From Acidobacteriota bacterium (GTDB lineage: Bacteria > Acidobacteriota > Thermoanaerobaculia > Multivoradales > JBCCEF01), in assembly GCA_039028635.1 (NCBI GenBank), contig JBCCHV010000049.1:1-49714 (forward strand): DNA of 49,714 bases, read 5' to 3'. Shown here piece after piece: positions 1 through 17,097 of the stretch. A program made the translations under genes and the position numbers. Each line of letters starts with the position of its first letter. Within the stretch, counting starts at the first letter, position 1. Under the pieces are notes generated by a model. The model was given only the letters and a program-made list of their open reading frames with translations. It ran no database searches and was not told the DNA's origin.

Positions 1-81
1 CACCGGCTTCGGTTGGGCGAGGGCCGGGGCGGCGAGCGCGAGAAGAAGAATGAGAATCGCGGCGAGGACGAGGCGGCTCAC
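1..81 (-). CDS. N-terminus of a secreted protein (runs off the left edge)
   Basis: Read on the minus strand, a GTG at 81-79 opens a frame of 27 codons that continues past base 1. The visible residues form a classic Sec signal peptide: VSRLVLAAILILLLALAAPA followed by LAQPKPV, with a short basic start, a long Leu/Ala/Ile core and an ALA-type cleavage site. The GTG overlaps the TGA of the upstream gene (GTGA, shared bases 79-80), so the two genes are probably translationally coupled. Nothing of the mature protein is visible, so no function can be given. Confidence 0.75.
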   Translation of the reverse strand, partial: MSRLVLAAILILLLALAAPALAQPKPV

Positions 82-707
82 GGCGACACCTCCTCGCCGC
101 TCCAGATCAGCTCCAGGGTCGACGTGTCGATCACCACCAGTACGTCCTCCGGCTGCAACGATCCCGGCAGCTCCGAGCCACCGTCTTGGGCGGCGAGGGA
201 CGACAGCGAGAGATTCACCGAGCCGTCTTCGAGGCCGTCGCCATCCGCCGAAGAGCCATCACCGATCGACTGACGCCAGCCCGCGGTGCCAGGACGCACC
301 AGGAATGCCTCCACCTGACGATTCGGCAGAGTCAGCGACTCCCCCGAGGGATCGAGCGCCGTCGCCGGCAGGCTCGACACCGAGCCCTCCCAGCCCGGCG
401 AGGGAAGCACCGTCACCTGGCCAGTAGTTAGGTCCGCCACGCCCCACGAGGCCAGCACCGGCATACCGCCCGCGGGCTCGTAGATGATCCGGCCGTCGCC
501 GTCCGCATCGCTCAAGGTCTCCGAGTAGGTCGTCAGCACACGGTTGTAGCCGTCCCGGCTCTTGCCTACCCCGAAGAGCCAGAGCTCCGAGTCCGCCGGA
601 ACCCGGGCGATCGTCAGGGACTTCGATCCCGAAACCAGCTCCAGGCCTGATAGCGAACCACCTACCGTCAACAATCCCAACACCGCCAAAATCAACGCTC
701 GACGCAT
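78..707 (-). CDS. Secreted protein of unknown function
   Basis: This is a 209-residue protein starting MRRALILAVLGLLTVGG, a Sec signal peptide with likely cleavage near residue 20. I chose the ATG at 707 because a GGGAGG sits nine bases upstream; the in-frame TTG nine bases earlier abuts that site. The mature part is acidic and Gly/Ser/Asp-rich, with stretches such as SDADGDGRI and SADGDGLEDGS that could bind calcium, but no family is recognised. It has its own promoter-like sequence at 749-778 and is followed directly by another exported protein (1-81) with overlapping stop and start. The pair probably forms a two-gene unit acting outside the cytoplasm. Confidence 0.75.
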   Translation of the reverse strand: MRRALILAVLGLLTVGGSLSGLELVSGSKSLTIARVPADSELWLFGVGKSRDGYNRVLTTYSETLSDADGDGRIIYEPAGGMPVLASWGVADLTTGQVTVLPSPGWEGSVSSLPATALDPSGESLTLPNRQVEAFLVRPGTAGWRQSIGDGSSADGDGLEDGSVNLSLSSLAAQDGGSELPGSLQPEDVLVVIDTSTLELIWSGEEVSP

Positions 708-748
708 CACGTCCAACCTCCCAAGAAATGCCCTCGTCCTTCCAGGAC

Positions 749-778
749 AACATAAAACTGGATTCAGTTCCTTGCCAA
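749..778 (-). promoter_or_regulatory. Sigma-70-like promoter for the 707 gene
   Basis: On the minus strand TTGGCA (778-773) is followed after 18 bases by TATGTT (754-749), about 40 bases before the ATG at 707. The boxes match consensus at 5/6 and 4/6 positions. It stands out in an otherwise GC-rich setting. Confidence 0.45.
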
Positions 779-838
779 AGCGCTACAGCAAGCCACGTGC
801 CATGGGGGACTTCGCCGTTTTACAGGCGTTTTCGGCGA

Positions 839-1270
839 TCAGGCCCGAAAAAGATGTCCGAAAGATGTCCGGAAGACGTCCGGAAGATGTCCGAAAGATG
901 TCCGGAATCTCGAGGAGGGCGGTGGCCTCCCTGCGGGAGGGCGCAGGTGGCTCAGGCTCTCAAGAGAGCGCGCCAACAGCTCGAGGGAAACCGCGGCACG
1001 CTCGGCAAAGGCGGCGCGGGTCACATCGCAAGGCTCGCCCCGCGGGTCCATTCGGCGCAGCAGACGGCAGAGGTACCGCAGGTCGCTGGCCACGGCGGCA
1101 AGCTCCGGGGCGAGGGAGCGGTCGACGCTCGGTGGCGTGGGCTGGCAGACGAGGCGCTCGTGGAGCGCCTCACCCAGCCAGCGCAGGGCAGAGCGAGATT
1201 CAGCGTCCGTCACCAAGGCGAGAGCGCTTTCTCGCAGAACCGATTCCGGCACGGGAGCTCGCAAGCTCAA
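839..1270 (-). CDS. Unknown protein, second gene of a coupled pair
   Basis: This frame gives about 143 residues from a TTG at 1270 whose bases overlap the TGA (1269-1267) of the gene before it, which suggests coupled translation. No standard ATG is available, and a GTG at 1252 is the alternative start. The protein is rich in Leu, Ala, Arg and Glu and looks helical (for example ESALALVTDAESRSALRWLG and LAAVASDLRYLCRLLRRMD). It has no signal peptide or membrane segment. The last 20 or so residues, with FRTSFGHL twice, are encoded by an 11-bp tandem repeat and look like a late addition. No family is recognised. Confidence 0.55.
   Translation of the reverse strand: MSLRAPVPESVLRESALALVTDAESRSALRWLGEALHERLVCQPTPPSVDRSLAPELAAVASDLRYLCRLLRRMDPRGEPCDVTRAAFAERAAVSLELLARSLESLSHLRPPAGRPPPSSRFRTSFGHLPDVFRTSFGHLFRA
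852..906. repeat. Five tandem 11-bp repeats
   Basis: Five head-to-tail units follow without gaps: AGATGTCCGAA, AGATGTCCGGA, AGACGTCCGGA, AGATGTCCGAA, AGATGTCCGGA. The unit is not a multiple of three, so three units (33 bp) are needed to return to the same reading phase. On the minus strand the array encodes the repetitive C-terminus of the 839-1270 gene just before its stop codon. Confidence 0.9.
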
Positions 1271-1812
1271 GACACGTTCGCCTGCGAGGGGTGGCCCGGC
1301 GACTGGCGCGACAGGCGCTCGGCGAGGGCGAGCTCGACCTCGGTCAAGCCCCGCACCCGAGGGTTGGTGAGCACCACCCACACCGTGTTGAGGACCACTG
1401 CCATCGCCGGGAAGGAACCCGCGGCCTGCAGAATGCCGGTGATGAACGCCGCAAAGCCAAGGGCCGCTTCCGAGCTGTCGAGCACGAAGGGCCGCACCAG
1501 GCTGCGGTTGTCGTCCGCCAGGCGCCAGCCCGCAAAGGCCTCGGAACGCTCGCGCAGGGCGGCATCCCCCAGTCGCGGCAGGGTGATCGCGGGGCCGGGG
1601 GCGGATTTCTTGCCCGGGGAAAGGAGCGCCGCCCGGCCATGAGCCAGGGTCTTCTGGATACGCTCCGGCTTCAGGTGGCCGGGCAGGTCGCCCGGGCCCG
1701 GAAAGCCGGCGAGGCCGCTCTCCCAAAGGAGTTGGTAGTAAGAGGCCGGTTCCCAGGGATCCGGCCTCGGCGCGTTGGGATTGGGCAAAGTACCTTCGGA
1801 GATTCGTGGCAT
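1267..1812 (-). CDS. Unknown protein, first gene of a coupled pair
   Basis: This is a 181-residue protein starting MPRISEGTLPNPNAPRPDPW, with AGGAG about nine bases before the ATG. The first 60 residues are Pro-rich. The middle holds a moderately hydrophobic stretch (GFAAFITGILQAAGSFPAMA, then VVLNTVWVVL) that could be a buried helical core or a membrane-associated hairpin. The end (GLTEVELALAERLSRQ) looks like an amphipathic helix. It is divergent from the XRE/TPR regulators, behind a promoter at 1925-1953, and its stop overlaps the next gene. It may be a target of the XRE regulator, which is inference. No family is recognised. Confidence 0.7.
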   Translation of the reverse strand: MPRISEGTLPNPNAPRPDPWEPASYYQLLWESGLAGFPGPGDLPGHLKPERIQKTLAHGRAALLSPGKKSAPGPAITLPRLGDAALRERSEAFAGWRLADDNRSLVRPFVLDSSEAALGFAAFITGILQAAGSFPAMAVVLNTVWVVLTNPRVRGLTEVELALAERLSRQSPGHPSQANVS

Positions 1813-1924
1813 CGTGTGGCTCCTGGTCTCTCCGCTGGCCAGTTCATCGACTCGCGAGGCTGGAGTGGCATGGCGGCGGCTTGCATCATTACGTGAGAAG
1901 GTGCGATCTCATGGAATGACGACA

Positions 1925-1953
1925 ACGCTAAGAGACTCCCAACGAAAAGTCAA
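1925..1953 (-). promoter_or_regulatory. Promoter for the unknown pair at 1812-839
   Basis: On the minus strand TTGACT (1953-1948), a 17-base spacer and TAGCGT (1930-1925) give a good sigma-70 layout. The leader to the ATG at 1812 would be about 105 bases. It lies in a locally AT-richer divergent region shared with the XRE promoter, so one operator there could control both directions. Confidence 0.45.
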
Positions 1954-2030
1954 CACTTTATGCTTACTTTTTTCGAGACAAAGGTACCACTATCTAGGTG
2001 AATCGACTCCAACCTCGGGAATCACTGCAT

Positions 2031-2060
2031 TTGACACCTACTCTCTGAATCCTCTAACAT
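2031..2060 (+). promoter_or_regulatory. Promoter for the XRE/TPR genes
   Basis: A perfect TTGACA (2031-2036) is followed by an 18-base spacer and TAACAT (2055-2060, 4/6). The expected start of transcription is within about five bases of the ATG at 2072, and no ribosome-binding site lies between. The first gene may therefore be read from a leaderless or nearly leaderless mRNA. Confidence 0.5.
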
Positions 2061-2071
2061 CTTGGTTAGTA

Positions 2072-2533
2072 ATGAATGAGATTCAGCAGGCTTACTCCCA
2101 GCAGATCCCGACGGCCCTCCGCCAACTGCGCCGGCGGACCAGCTCGACCCAACACGAGGTCGCGCGCAGGGCTGGAATCCACAAGAACCACATCAGCGCC
2201 TACGAGAATGGCCGGCGGCTCCCGAGCCTGGCAACGCTCTTTCGGCTGATCGCGGCTCTCGATGCCGATCTCCTCGATCTGGCCGCCGCGATGGGTATGG
2301 AAGGGGTGCGGCCGGAGACCCGCGCCCGGCTGCTGGAAGCCTGGGGCATCGCCCCAACGGAAGCAGAGGAGGACAATTCCGAGGCGACGCGTCGCCTTCT
2401 GCACTCGGCCACCGACTCTTTGATCGCCAGCCTGGTTCGCAGCCTGGGAGAAGCGCAGGGTGTCAAGGATGAGCTGCTGCAGCCGAACAGCGAGGCGATA
2501 CCTCAGGAGGAACGAAGCCGTGTTGACCGTTGA
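2072..2533 (+). CDS. XRE-family helix-turn-helix regulator
   Basis: This is a 153-residue protein with an N-terminal Cro/C1-type domain at about residues 10-68. The core is TQHEVARRAGIHKNHISAYE followed by NGRRLPSLATLFRL, the usual helix 2-turn-helix 3 and scaffold pattern. The rest is acidic and helical with no catalytic motif. The open frame extends upstream to 1775, but only the ATG at 2072 lies at the promoter, and the upstream translation does not look like protein. The next gene starts inside its 3' end on another frame, so the two are coupled. It likely regulates its own unit and perhaps the divergent pair at 839-1812. Confidence 0.85.
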   Translation: MNEIQQAYSQQIPTALRQLRRRTSSTQHEVARRAGIHKNHISAYENGRRLPSLATLFRLIAALDADLLDLAAAMGMEGVRPETRARLLEAWGIAPTEAEEDNSEATRRLLHSATDSLIASLVRSLGEAQGVKDELLQPNSEAIPQEERSRVDR

Positions 2534-3545
2534 GGCTCTCCGTCGCCTCGAACCCCGTGGGCGACGCATCGCCGTCGCCCGCGAAACGGTTTCCGCGCAG
2601 CTGGTCCGAAGGCTGGTGCAAGAGCACGTAGATCAGCGCCAGAAGGGCTCGCCAGAAGCCACGAACTGGGCCTTGCTGGCCGTCAACGCAGCCCAGCTCC
2701 TATCCTCCCGGGAAGCGGTGGATTGCTTGCCCCAGGCCCTCGCCCACCTGGGCAATGCGCATCGTGTGGAAGCTCGCTTCGACCTCGCCGAGCGCTATCT
2801 GCGAGAAGCCTGGAAGCGCTGCAGCGATTCGGCGCCGCTGATTCGGGCCGAAGTCGCCTCTCTCTACGCCTCCGTCGCTTGCGATCGTCGACAGTTTGCC
2901 CGCGCTCACCGCTTCCTCGACGAGGCGATACCGTTGGTGAAGAGGCACTCCGGCATTCCGCACGAAGTAGCGAAACTCGAGCTGCAGCGAGCGAATGCTT
3001 ACGGCTCGGCAGGACGCCTCGCCGAGGAGAAAAGGACCCTGCTGCGGGTGGCCGAGCGGCTCGACGCCCAGCACGACCCGCGCTTGGCCTGCCATGTCCT
3101 GCACAACCTTGCGTTCTGCCTGGTCGACTCCGGCGAGACCGCGGAGGCTCGGCGTCTCTTCGACCGCCTTTCGCCGGAGCTGGTCGAGCTCCACCTTGGC
3201 TCGGCCGGAGTGTGGCGCCGAGGCCTCCTCTCGGCCCGTCTCGCCCACGCCGAAGGCGATTCGGGCACCGCACGCGAGACCCTGCGCGAGCTGCGCAGAG
3301 ATCCCCCGTGCGGAATCATCGATCGAGCACTCCTCGAGCTGGCCCTGATCGAACCCAGCGCCGCCCTAGGCCGCCTGGACGAAGCTTCCGAATCCGCCCT
3401 CCTAGCGGCCTCCTTAGCCAACACGCTCGAACTCGATGCCGAAGCCGCGGCGGCGGCCCGGGCCCTCGAGAGCTTGGTCGAGATCCGCGCCGGCCAGGCT
3501 TTCCTGCTCGAAGCGGCCCGACGCCTCCGGCGGTACCTGTCCTAA
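2520..3545 (+). CDS. TPR-like helical repeat protein, partner of the XRE regulator
   Basis: This is a 341-residue protein from a GTG at 2520 with AGGAGG nine bases upstream (2505-2510); it overlaps the XRE gene by 14 bases. From about residue 70 the sequence repeats the helix-turn-helix rhythm of tetratricopeptide repeats. Examples are ALAHLGNAHRVEARFDLAER, LYASVACDRRQFARAHRFLD and LAFCLVDSGETAEARRLFDR. There is no DNA-binding domain, signal peptide or enzyme motif. In RRNPP-type regulators of Firmicutes such a repeat domain binds a signalling peptide and controls a linked XRE domain. Here the two parts are separate coupled genes, and a small peptide gene lies directly convergent. A sensor role is inference. 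Confidence 0.8.
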   Translation: MLTVEALRRLEPRGRRIAVARETVSAQLVRRLVQEHVDQRQKGSPEATNWALLAVNAAQLLSSREAVDCLPQALAHLGNAHRVEARFDLAERYLREAWKRCSDSAPLIRAEVASLYASVACDRRQFARAHRFLDEAIPLVKRHSGIPHEVAKLELQRANAYGSAGRLAEEKRTLLRVAERLDAQHDPRLACHVLHNLAFCLVDSGETAEARRLFDRLSPELVELHLGSAGVWRRGLLSARLAHAEGDSGTARETLRELRRDPPCGIIDRALLELALIEPSAALGRLDEASESALLAASLANTLELDAEAAAAARALESLVEIRAGQAFLLEAARRLRRYLS

Positions 3546-3622
3546 CCGTTCGGGTCGACTCTTCCCCCAGCCTCGGTGTGGTCTTCGCCGAGCCCCAGCA
3601 GCGACAAGATCCAATCCCACAT
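3542..3622 (-). CDS. Candidate 26-residue peptide gene convergent with the TPR gene
   Basis: A short minus-strand frame starts with ATG at 3622-3620 and has AGGAGG at 3635-3630 with seven bases between, a near-ideal ribosome-binding site. It encodes MWDWILSLLGLGEDH, then a polar Gly/Thr/Glu part ending RVDPNG. Its TAG (3544-3542) overlaps the stop of the TPR gene. The Trp/Leu/Ile-rich head could be amphipathic and the tail is charged. Upstream on the same strand a TATATT box (3734-3729) could serve as a -10, and a GGCTTC/GAAGCC hairpin (3707-3721) would sit in the leader. It could be a signal peptide precursor, a small membrane-active protein or chance; the spacing argues against chance. Confidence 0.45.
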   Translation of the reverse strand: MWDWILSLLGLGEDHTEAGGRVDPNG

Positions 3623-3795
3623 AGTCCCGCCTCCTTATTGGCGCAGTCCCGGCCCGGGCCTCCATGGCCCGCCGGGCCACGCGAACCGTTGATTTTCTCA
3701 CCTACCGGCTTCGCAGAAGCCCTAGAGGAATATATACGCCAATTCTCCAGAGGTGGAGTCGGGCACGGCCGGGCAGCTCGACCTGTCCAGACCAC

Positions 3796-3821
3796 AAAAA
3801 AGCCCCCCGTCGCCGGGGGGC
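3796..3821 (-). terminator. Strong intrinsic terminator on the minus strand
   Basis: Read on the minus strand the sequence is GCCCCCCG, a GCGA tetraloop of the stable GNRA type, CGGGGGGC, then six T residues. The 8-bp perfect GC stem and clean T tract make it a textbook intrinsic terminator. No open frame on the minus strand ends just upstream of it, so it either ends an unannotated RNA from about 3930 or guards against antisense transcription from prfC. Confidence 0.8.
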
Positions 3822-4011
3822 CTGCCCGATGGGGCCTGGGAGCCGGCCCCGAGGACGTGGGGGACGGCTTCCGGGGGGGACTCGACCGACCAGGAGGAGC
3901 GGCCGGCCGAGCACCAAGTTGGTTCTATCTATTTAGGCGCAAAGGGCGCGGCGAATCCCTCACCCAGGATCCTTCGCCGGCGGGCCGAGGGTCTGGTAGG
4001 CTGCCCCCTCA

Positions 4012-14378: not shown

Positions 14379-17097
14379 AGATCGCCCCAGCCGCCAGCCT
14401 CGCCAGGAGGATTCGTCCGCCAAAGGTCTGTCGCGCCGGGACTTCGTGCGTCTCGCCGGCGGCGTCTCCTTCGGTCTCGCCACCGGTGCCCTCTCGCTGC
14501 CGATCCTCAAGCGCCTGGCCGACGGAGGGCCGCAGAGGGCTGCGGCCCCGGCCGGCAAGATCGACTACACCCGCGCCACGGCCAAGCCCACCATCTGCTT
14601 CGGCTGCACCACCCATTGCGGAGTCATCGGATGGGTCCAGGACGGCCGAGTCCGCCGCATCGAGGGCAATCCCCTCGACCCGAATAGCAAGGGAAAGATC
14701 TGCGCCAAGGCCAACGGCATGATCGCCTACACCTACTACCCAGAGCGCCTGCTCTACCCCCTCGAGCGGGTCGGTCGGCGCGGCGAGGGGCGCTGGAAGC
14801 GCATCACCTGGGATCAGGCGCTCGACAAGATCGCCGATCGCCTACGCCCGCTGCGCGAGAACGGCACCCCGGAGCGGTTCGTGTTTCAGTATGGCCGCGA
14901 CAAGACCAAGGGCTTCACCAGCAGGTTCACCAACGCCTTCGGCACGCCCAATCGCCTCAACCGGCGCTCGATCTGTAGCTCCAACCGCCGGGTGCCGCTG
15001 ATGAGCTTCTACGGTCGGGATTTCGAGTGGGAGACTCAGGACTTCGAAGAGACTCGCTTCATTCTCAACTTCGGCGGCAATCCGATGGAGGCCTATCAAG
15101 GGGGCTTCTACATGATGCCCCGGATCCAGCAAGCGCGGGTCGATCACGGCGCCCGCATGGTGACCTTCGAGGTCCGGCCATCGGCGACCGCGTCGGTGTC
15201 GGACGAGTACTTCCAGATCGCCCCCGCCACCGATGGCGTCGTCGCCCTCGCGATGGCCAATGTCCTGATCGAAGAGGACCTCGTCGACCACCAATTCTGG
15301 AGCCGTTGGGTCAACGTCTCGCTGGCCGAGGTGCACGACCACATCGCCCATTTCACGCCACCGGTCGCCGCCGCCCACAGCGGTATACCGGCCGAGGACA
15401 TCCGGCGCCTCGCCATCGAGTTCGGCAAGGCGGCTCCGCGTTGCTGCACCCTGTCGAACCGGGGCTCCGCCAAGCACTACAACGGCGTCCAGACGGACCG
15501 CGCGATTCGCCTTCTCGACGTGCTGGTCGGCAATGTCGGCAAGCCCGGGGGCTTCTGCCTCTCCACCCTGCGGGGCTGGAACCGACGCTACGGCCAGGAC
15601 GATCTTCCGGTGATCTCTCAGCCGGCGCCGAAGCCCCCGAAGCCGCAGCCCTGGAAGCCCGGAACGAGGCAGTTCGAGAGCCTCCCCGAGGCCGTGCAGC
15701 GGCGTGTCGCGGCGTTCCCGGAGGAGTGGCAGAACACGTATTTCGGAGAGCTTGCGACGCCCTCCGAGTTCCCCCTGTCATGGCACTGGTACAACATGCG
15801 GGTCGGCCAGCTAGTTCCGGACTATATTCGCCAGGGCGTCCAACCGGTCGACGTCTTCATGTCCTACAGCCTCGGGGCCGCCTACAGCTTTCCGGAGGCC
15901 GGTGATGTGCGCGAGGTCTTCCTCGACGAAGGCCTCATCCCGTTCCACGTCGCCATCGACATCGGCTACGGCGAGCAAACGGCCCTGGCGGACATCGTCC
16001 TGCCGGACGCCACCAGCCTGGAGCGCTGGGATGCTCACTCGACCAACAACTATGGACTGGTGCCCTACACCGGGATTCGCCAGCCCCTGGTCGAGCCCCT
16101 CGGCGAAGCTCGCCCACTGCAGATCATCCTGCGCGACCTGGCGCGCCGCATCGGCGGCGGCATGGAGCAGTACTTCGACTTCGAGGACGTCGAGGACTAC
16201 TACCGGGAGTGGTACTCGCAGGTGCCGATCGCTTGGGAAGAGCTCAAGCGTCGGGGTATCTGGCAGCCACCGGGCCGCGCCAAGGACTACGAGCTCTACG
16301 AGCGCCCGGTGGCGGCGGAGAAGCTCGCCGACAGCCGAGTCGATCCGGCCACCGGCTTGGTCTATGACCGCCGCGGCGGCAAGGAGAAGGTGGTCGGCAT
16401 CGAGCAAGACGGCCGACCGGTTCAGGGTTTCCCGACGCCGTCGCGCAAGATCCAAGTTCTCGACGAGATCTTCCCCCGTGCCGCCGCCAAGCTCGGCATA
16501 CCTCTCGACGATCCGGTCGCCGACCCTCTGCCGAGCTGGTTCCCGGTCCCCGGCCTCGAGGGACTGCCGAAGGACCGCTTGATCCTGACCTCCTTCAAGT
16601 GGAACGTTCACACCCAAGGAAGGTCGAGCCACCTGAAGTATCAGGCCGAGATCGTGCACACCAATCCCCTCTTCATGAGCCCCGAAACCGGACGACGGCT
16701 GGGACTGGAGAGCGGCGACGAGGTCGAGGTGACCGTCTACCGCCCCCAGGGCCGCACCTATCGCGCCGGCGAGACGGAGCCCGTCGGTAGCTTTCGCAAC
16801 CAGGTGCGCCTGCTGGCCGGCGTTCACCCCCAGGTCATCGCCTGCGCCCACCACGGCGGTCACTGGGAGCACGGCGCCGTCGCCCGCGGCGAACATCGCC
16901 AGAGCCCGGTCGCCGCCGTCGCCGGGGACCCCCAGGCCCTCGCCGATCGCGACCTGCCGGCGAACATCTGGTGGTCCCGGGAGCGGGGAGGAACCGGGAC
17001 CGGACACCGGCTCAACGACGCCCTACCAATCAACCCGTCGCCGATGGTGGGAGGCCAGAACTGGTACGACAACGTGTGCAGCCTGCGCAAGGTGTGA
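14368..17097 (+). CDS. Molybdopterin oxidoreductase catalytic subunit (TtrA/SrdA-like)
   Basis: This is a 909-residue catalytic subunit with a twin-arginine signal (LSRRDFVRLAGG, residues 21-32). Cys77, Cys80, Cys84 and Cys112 (CX2CX3CX27C) bind the FS0 [4Fe-4S] cluster. Cys203 in RSICSSNRR is the likely Mo ligand. The C-terminal molybdopterin-guanine-dinucleotide part is intact (HTNPLFMSPETGRRLGLESG). Gene order and the FGCTTHCGVIGWV start match tetrathionate (TtrA) and membrane selenate (SrdA) reductases. Thiosulfate, polysulfide and arsenate reductases are other members of the family, so the substrate is open. The GTG start overlaps the C subunit; the stop overlaps the chaperone start. Confidence 0.92.
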   Translation: MSPEDRPSRQPRQEDSSAKGLSRRDFVRLAGGVSFGLATGALSLPILKRLADGGPQRAAAPAGKIDYTRATAKPTICFGCTTHCGVIGWVQDGRVRRIEGNPLDPNSKGKICAKANGMIAYTYYPERLLYPLERVGRRGEGRWKRITWDQALDKIADRLRPLRENGTPERFVFQYGRDKTKGFTSRFTNAFGTPNRLNRRSICSSNRRVPLMSFYGRDFEWETQDFEETRFILNFGGNPMEAYQGGFYMMPRIQQARVDHGARMVTFEVRPSATASVSDEYFQIAPATDGVVALAMANVLIEEDLVDHQFWSRWVNVSLAEVHDHIAHFTPPVAAAHSGIPAEDIRRLAIEFGKAAPRCCTLSNRGSAKHYNGVQTDRAIRLLDVLVGNVGKPGGFCLSTLRGWNRRYGQDDLPVISQPAPKPPKPQPWKPGTRQFESLPEAVQRRVAAFPEEWQNTYFGELATPSEFPLSWHWYNMRVGQLVPDYIRQGVQPVDVFMSYSLGAAYSFPEAGDVREVFLDEGLIPFHVAIDIGYGEQTALADIVLPDATSLERWDAHSTNNYGLVPYTGIRQPLVEPLGEARPLQIILRDLARRIGGGMEQYFDFEDVEDYYREWYSQVPIAWEELKRRGIWQPPGRAKDYELYERPVAAEKLADSRVDPATGLVYDRRGGKEKVVGIEQDGRPVQGFPTPSRKIQVLDEIFPRAAAKLGIPLDDPVADPLPSWFPVPGLEGLPKDRLILTSFKWNVHTQGRSSHLKYQAEIVHTNPLFMSPETGRRLGLESGDEVEVTVYRPQGRTYRAGETEPVGSFRNQVRLLAGVHPQVIACAHHGGHWEHGAVARGEHRQSPVAAVAGDPQALADRDLPANIWWSRERGGTGTGHRLNDALPINPSPMVGGQNWYDNVCSLRKV

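Follow-up and report, generated by a model that had tools for sequence, protein, structure and literature searches.

What is a gene for a 26-residue peptide doing, tail to tail with the gene of a tetratricopeptide repeat (TPR) protein that is itself coupled to an XRE-type regulator? The question is raised by contig JBCCHV010000049.1 of an Acidobacteriota bacterium (assembly GCA_039028635.1). This contig, analysed whole (49,714 nucleotides) and called the window here, is C49 of a 6.3-Mb genome, G000; G001 is a second genome of the genus. An earlier note made from the letters alone had described XRE and TPR genes coupled by a 14-base overlap and a convergent 26-codon frame with AGGAGG seven bases before its ATG, and both are present as described (Table 1). 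The stop of the peptide gene overlaps that of the TPR gene, so that the two gene ends share four bases. We suggest that the locus is probably a peptide-controlled switch, in which the TPR protein, under control of the peptide, would set the XRE repressor of a divergent operon. To us it looks like a widespread and so far undescribed bacterial signalling module; we found no description of such a system in a literature search of partial coverage in which the peptide motif itself was not searched for.

The layout is not confined to the window. In G000, tblastn places XRE, TPR and convergent peptide genes together at all of four further contigs (C56, C5, C17 and C7), where paralogs of the peptide are 50-57% identical and paralogs of the window XRE gene adjoin TPR genes. 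A separate search of G000 with the XRE protein gave 12 other places, four of them on these same contigs. Two further complete modules lie in G001 (L041/L099 and L047/L100, on contigs C12 and C28), which brings the complete layout to seven loci in two genomes, window included, each with a homolog of the window TPR protein; such recurrence makes the layout more than chance. The peptide tail overlaps the TPR gene convergently in five of the seven copies. Weaker peptide matches occur at C32 and C94, where a TPR gene is accompanied by a longer peptide whose start is signal-peptide-like (signal peptides were called by eye or by hydropathy throughout). The earlier note had named co-conservation of the gene order, and codon-level conservation of the peptide, as tests of its proposal. 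The first is borne out by the five loci of G000 (window included) and the two of G001 that keep XRE followed by TPR with the convergent peptide, and the second by dN (nonsynonymous) values below dS (synonymous).

For the three closest pairs of peptide genes dN/dS is 0.14/1.47 (C56-C5), 0.17/2.85 (window-G001 C28) and 0.22/0.82 (C17-C7), many other pairs being saturated at synonymous sites; differences between copies are most frequent at third codon positions. Judged by these substitutions, the 26-residue peptide gene is coding and under codon-level constraint. Peptides of the window type are 26-35 residues long and follow the pattern MW[DE]xIL...LG...DP[DN]G. Their leader carries a palindrome, TGGCC-N5-GGCCA, kept 54-57 bases before the start in six of seven copies, and all three genomic occurrences of a longer form of it (at most two mismatches) are at modules. 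An Rfam search of seven G000 loci (E <= 1) returned one chance-level match, below the gathering score. Across 118 genomes, own included, a profile of the peptide (A4) gave good matches in G000 and G001 only, and four weak ones (E 0.002-0.007; G002, G071, G080 and G104).

The window module belongs to a larger family, of which it forms one branch; the family joins TPR proteins to peptides ending in DPxG, and in it an extracytoplasmic function (ECF) sigma factor can replace XRE. TPR relatives (E <= 1e-12, best 17 matches per genome scored) occur in 63 of the 118 genomes, own included. We examined 66 TPR loci, made up of 26 that were returned (L051-L076; L075 is without a whole TPR frame) and 40 regions chosen in G000, G001, G005 and G006; L101 and L109 overlap. 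A small frame with DP[DN]G in its last 16 residues is present at 31 of the 66, compared with one of the 95 pieces (4 kb each) that served as control (Fisher test, 1e-13), or at 29 of 64 once L099 and L100, known beforehand, are excluded. Uncut, the control (380 kb) holds two such frames: one (L139) was lost at a piece border on cutting, and the other (L128) looks like a family member itself. Several of the 66 loci treated as empty have near variants (LDPIG, MDPIG, MDPGG, GVDPNN and LDPHG). A strict count made on the 72 loci scored for partner genes omits the peptide of L026, a locus outside the 66, because its frame is extended upstream to 199 residues. The 31 frames lie upstream of the TPR gene on the same strand in 25 cases, downstream on the opposite strand in five and downstream on the same strand in one. 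By hydropathy, a frame has a hydrophobic start at 22 of these 31 loci.

The octapeptide itself recurs throughout the family. Forty TPR-linked precursors were selected for DP[DN]G, the other octapeptide positions being unselected; among those, G stands four places before D in 33 of the 40, and M, L or I immediately before D in 31 (V in the window). Two to four tandem octapeptides are found in 13 of the 40 precursors. At the DNA level, the pattern DPxG-stop occurs at nine sites in each of G000 and G001, where the reversed control gives 0 and 2 respectively. Thirteen of the 18 adjoin a TPR gene (seven are the modules, and one, L192, has a short TPR frame only), three are open reading frames (ORFs) with multiple octapeptides and two are neither. 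L190 and L191, on contigs C3 and C5 of G001, are DPxG-stop sites without TPR gene or repeat frame. A scan of named genomes gave a single weak TPR locus, in Elusimicrobia, where the sigma and XRE profiles matched nothing, and one query each of viral contigs and phage records found no TPR relative.

The genes beside the TPR genes indicate what these proteins may act upon. Families of at least 60 residues recurring at four or more of 73 loci are the ECF sigma factor (the largest), two XRE-like groups, the peptide, a group resembling a frame shadow and a dihydrolipoamide-acyltransferase-like enzyme. The gene directly before TPR, scored at 72 loci, is an ECF sigma factor in 22, a window-type XRE in seven and a second type of XRE in four. 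Both sigma genes tested exceed the TIGR02937 cut-off. A zinc motif (H, then H-x3/4-C-x2-C) marks the TPR N-terminus at 19 of the 22 sigma loci, all four second-XRE loci, 29 of the 39 loci with none of these partners and none of the seven window-type loci; by eye, we saw neither it nor a signal peptide in the window TPR protein. Only two of 16 hand-picked N-termini (set A7) match zf-HC2, and the designation 'anti-sigma domain' therefore rests on the motif and the gene order. Another family of the class, f13, combines an ECF sigma factor and a zinc-TPR protein with a short signal-peptide-like gene ending PPG, PKP or PVG. A signal-peptide-like gene ending P..[PG] lies no more than 250 bases behind the TPR gene at 13 of 30 f13 loci (L140-L169, from 39 matches) compared with 0 of 399 control ORFs; most of these loci have a sigma factor, and a DP[DN]G frame occurs at one of the 30. 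They may represent the same system using a different peptide code.

On the other side of the XRE gene, the earlier note had placed a coupled pair of orphan genes as a possible output. The coupling stands; the first gene is no orphan and belongs to PF01329, whereas ORF2, searched as 842-1282 (four extra residues), has no Pfam or NCBIfam match. Alignment places FPA in the window protein where the solved relatives 3jst and 2ebb have HHP, the active-site motif of pterin-4a-carbinolamine dehydratase, and because of this replacement an enzyme role is doubtful. PF01329-like genes with the same N-terminal part number four in G000 and four in G001, and three other of the 118 genomes give weak matches (E ~1e-6). 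At five loci (window, C56, C5 and, readable up to contig ends only, G001 C12 and C28) such a gene stands opposite XRE; in G001 C3 and C9 it faces a TPR gene without window-type XRE, and that of C24 meets a contig end before any neighbour. All seven with readable flanks, of the eight, are thus divergent from a TPR gene or an XRE-TPR operon. The reading of the pair as likely output is supported. A PF01329 gene adjoins the module at five of the seven loci and is absent from C17 and C7. Homologs of ORF2 adjoin PF01329 genes in C56, C5, C24 and G001 C9. The 3' end of ORF2 (window ~845-910) contains short repeats in tandem, of the type aagatgtccgg, and the translated ends in C56 and C5 are similar.

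The divergent operon extends beyond this pair. In C5 it runs through the signal-peptide protein into a 1675-residue RHS-repeat protein (PF05593 RHS_repeat, E 3.8e-20), and the continuation in C56 matches the N-terminus of that protein (34 residues at 74%). Window positions 1-1752 and C56 (L026:166-1896) are 90% identical in nucleotides, a likeness that ends close to where the PF01329 gene starts. The adjoining control genes, for XRE (28% protein identity), TPR (27-29%) and the peptide, are strongly diverged, and we conclude that the output and control blocks have separate histories. The break in identity near the PF01329 start looks like recombination between the two blocks. The earlier note had also described two good divergent promoters: the plus-strand box is borne out, being the one found where 0.2 were expected and ending 11 bases before the XRE ATG, but the minus-strand box (1925-1953) failed the scan that the other passed. 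A terminator-like minus-strand hairpin with a T run lies upstream of the peptide gene (3800-3823; three overlapping predictions compared with 1.9 expected), with no gene recognised before it.

Table 1. Features of the locus, in window coordinates
Feature	Position	Strand	Remarks
XRE-type helix-turn-helix (HTH) regulator, 153 residues	2072-2533	+	ATG start; PF01381 E 9.9e-13
TPR protein, 341 residues, putative peptide sensor	2520-3545	+	GTG start; Pfam TPR matches sub-threshold only
Leaderless 26-residue peptide MWDWILSLLGLGEDHTEAGGRVDPNG	3542-3622	-	ATG start; convergent with TPR gene
Proposed signal, C-terminal octapeptide GGRVDPNG	3545-3568	-	Compare G-x-x-[MLI]-D-P-[ND]-G of TPR-linked precursors
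Palindrome TGGCC-N5-GGCCA in peptide leader	3665-3679	-	57 bases before ATG
Sigma-70-like promoter of XRE-TPR operon, TTGACA-18-TAACAT	2031-2060	+	10/12 consensus bases
PF01329 (pterin-4a-carbinolamine dehydratase) fold protein	1267-1812	-	PF01329 E 2.8e-9, above Pfam cut-off
ORF2, no family	839-1270	-	TTG start at 1270; 4-base overlap with PF01329 gene
Protein with signal-peptide-like start	78-716	-	Same operon as PF01329 gene; C56 91% identical, C5 37%, order kept
Start of next gene, truncated by contig start	1-81	-	Same place in C5 is the 1675-residue RHS protein

In the switch that we propose, XRE would repress the divergent operon (PF01329-like protein, ORF2, signal-peptide protein and RHS protein) and might also repress its own promoter. 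The TPR protein, made from the same operon as XRE, would bind XRE or the XRE-DNA complex and so set XRE activity. We infer that the 26-mer, or GGRVDPNG released from it, would bind in the TPR groove and alter this effect; the sign of that regulation, like the nature of the output, is part of the model. The operon would thereby answer to the level of peptide, and may in this way track cell density or kin. In relatives, an ECF sigma factor would take the place of XRE and be restrained by an anti-sigma-like zinc domain that is joined to the TPR protein. In many of them the peptide, which may be exported and may then re-enter cells, would derive from a precursor whose start is signal-peptide-like and which contains one octapeptide or more.

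The earlier note knew of no described system with this exact layout, but separate XRE repressor, TPR anti-repressor and peptide are known from RcoLS20/RapLS20/PhrLS20 and ImmR/RapI/PhrI (PMC3814332). On pLS20 the XRE repressor is divergent from the operon, the TPR protein is its anti-repressor and the peptide blocks the latter (PMC3814332). As there and in ICEBs1 (ImmR-RapI-PhrI), the XRE protein, the TPR protein and the peptide are separate here, with the peptide gene beside the TPR gene, and at five loci (window, C56, C5, G001 C12 and G001 C28) the XRE gene and the output operon diverge. PhrLS20 is an exported 44-residue pre-pro-protein that yields a pentapeptide, whereas the window peptide is leaderless, DPxG-ended and convergent. 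Unlike Rco/Rap/Phr, the system occurs in a diderm genome (a FadL-type outer-membrane protein, E 7e-66, indicates a diderm host), and an ECF sigma factor is a possible partner of TPR. We propose that the circuit logic resembles that of pLS20, with the octapeptide as ligand.

The wider RRNPP and RRNPPA systems (Rap, Rgg, NprR, PlcR, PrgX and AimR) likewise set a TPR protein of ~340 residues beside a small peptide gene. Their propeptides have 10-100 residues and their receptors about 250-500; the window has 26 (coding by dN/dS) and 341, and the two genes adjoin with a 4-base overlap. RRNPP propeptides, SHP and PrgQ excepted, are secreted by Sec, whereas peptides of the window type show no signal peptide by eye; many relatives have one by hydropathy. 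The window TPR protein also differs from these receptors in having no DNA-binding domain, and in sequence it is not specifically nearest to them. Its likeness to Rap and NprR does not exceed that to generic TPRs, and for this reason we have not filed it as an RRNPP member; our best reading is that the system would work like one. Its model, folded alone, is all-helical with a mean confidence (pLDDT) of 61, which is too low for a binding groove to be made out. Arbitrium (AimR-AimP) resembles the present family in that one copy here lies in a prophage, next to early genes. AimR carries its own DNA-binding domain, whereas XRE is separate here. The leaderless communication peptide (LCP) SIP of Firmicutes likewise lacks a signal sequence and has a cytosolic receptor; it comes from a 24-bp gene, and the peptides here have 26-35 residues and a DPxG end (PMC10518010 for the LCPs). 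The sigma branch is like ECF sigma factors with zinc-associated anti-sigma (ZAS) proteins, in that the sigma gene stands next to a protein with an H ... H-x3/4-C-x2-C N-terminus, and unlike them in that a TPR sensor replaces the membrane domain and a peptide gene is linked. Repeated mature peptides are described in RRNPP systems too (PMC9765709), and the published RRNPP scan covered Firmicutes and viruses (PMC10075063).

Several observations weigh against a peptide-controlled switch of this kind. Of the 12 other places matched by the XRE protein in G000, eight had no such peptide found alongside, 35 of the 66 TPR loci have no strict DP[DN]G frame, and 39 of the 72 have neither sigma nor XRE directly before the TPR gene. 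The DPxG-stop pattern barely exceeds its reversed control in the f5 genomes (G005 7 v 6, G013 8 v 5, G020 8 v 7), and its counts are near zero in the f4 genomes and in the majority of class-level genomes. In favour of the switch, octapeptide repeats agree at their two variable positions within a precursor (0.83, 29 pairs) but not between precursors (0.20, 780 pairs); agreement within a precursor is, however, also expected from local duplication, and the correlation of TPR with peptide (Mantel r 0.29, p 2e-4, n=40) is also expected from common descent. The window TPR protein matches Rap105 (E 3.8e-6) and NprR (6e-6), with consensus TPR and kinesin light chain ranking higher, and in structure comparison generic TPRs rank above Rap and NprR likewise. 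Finally, secretion is doubtful for the window peptide because it has no signal peptide.

This last point raises the question of whether the peptide acts inside its producer only, as a ligand or clamp of TPR (a timer or a translation-coupled sensor) that carries no signal between cells. Some relatives (L057, L060 and L103; by eye) share the lack of a signal peptide with the window type, and the overlapping convergent tails (5/7 copies) would permit antisense coupling with the TPR mRNA. However, the hydrophobic starts (22/31 strict-frame loci) and the tandem octapeptides (13/40 precursors) speak for export, and leaderless peptides can be secreted signals, as the LCPs of Firmicutes are (PMC10518010). 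We consider a purely intracellular role unlikely.

The copy on C7 belongs to a prophage that carries genes for portal, head and tape-measure proteins, Erf and integrase. There the XRE gene diverges from a small gene that looks HTH-like by eye and has no PHROG match. Such an arrangement would suit a phage immunity switch, and the window module could be a domesticated one with no role in communication; but outside that prophage five further copies stand opposite PF01329 genes, C17 has neither, and constraint persists on the peptides, which makes this origin improbable. About 2.5 kb from the C7 module is a 78-residue gene (L171:14911-15147, minus strand) with a signal-peptide-like start and five GP[HF]ID[PL]xG repeats (four DPxG, one DLNG). 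An opposite frame (L171 ~15211-15456, plus strand; start inferred) is leaderless and holds six different DPxG octapeptides. Both frames are almost all octapeptide repeat, with 11 octapeptide-like repeats together, and one, GGQVDPNG, differs from the window GGRVDPNG at one position. A frame on C14 (L189:2781-3044, minus strand) has five repeats close in sequence to the 78-residue gene, with no TPR neighbour within the 6 kb read. Tentatively, in a whole class of diderm bacteria each genome may run many parallel peptide channels (perhaps tens) of secreted octapeptides, sensed within the cell by TPR proteins that serve as peptide-controlled anti-sigma factors or XRE partners. The prophage may tap this code, keeping one channel for a switch of its own and emitting its 11 repeats to confuse or call up host channels.

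Two further explanations fare worse. That the peptide is the precursor of a ribosomally synthesised and post-translationally modified peptide, with the TPR protein as maturation helper, is suggested by the repeated, core-like octapeptides and by a weak match of one TPR protein to HaaT (E 4.3e-6, 25 bits compared with a cut-off of 1125); the flanks read, for most loci ~1.5 kb, contain no recurrent maturation enzyme, and we think it very unlikely. A toxin-antitoxin-like pair, in which XRE and TPR silence a small toxic membrane peptide, is the least probable of all, for although the MW[DE]xIL[ES]xLG start looks amphipathic by eye and XRE proteins are common antitoxins, the part held in common is the hydrophilic DP[DN]G end, carried by precursors with very different middles, and sigma factors take the place of XRE.

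TPR receptors that sense peptides inside the cell have been described for Firmicutes and their mobile elements (PMC10075063 and PMC9765709). If the peptide-controlled switch is correct, a diderm clade with many TPR-peptide pairs, a readable octapeptide code and a sigma branch would be a second, perhaps independent, case. Signal, receptor and output would then be matchable from sequence alone, and the jamming of bacterial peptide signals by phage would be directly testable.

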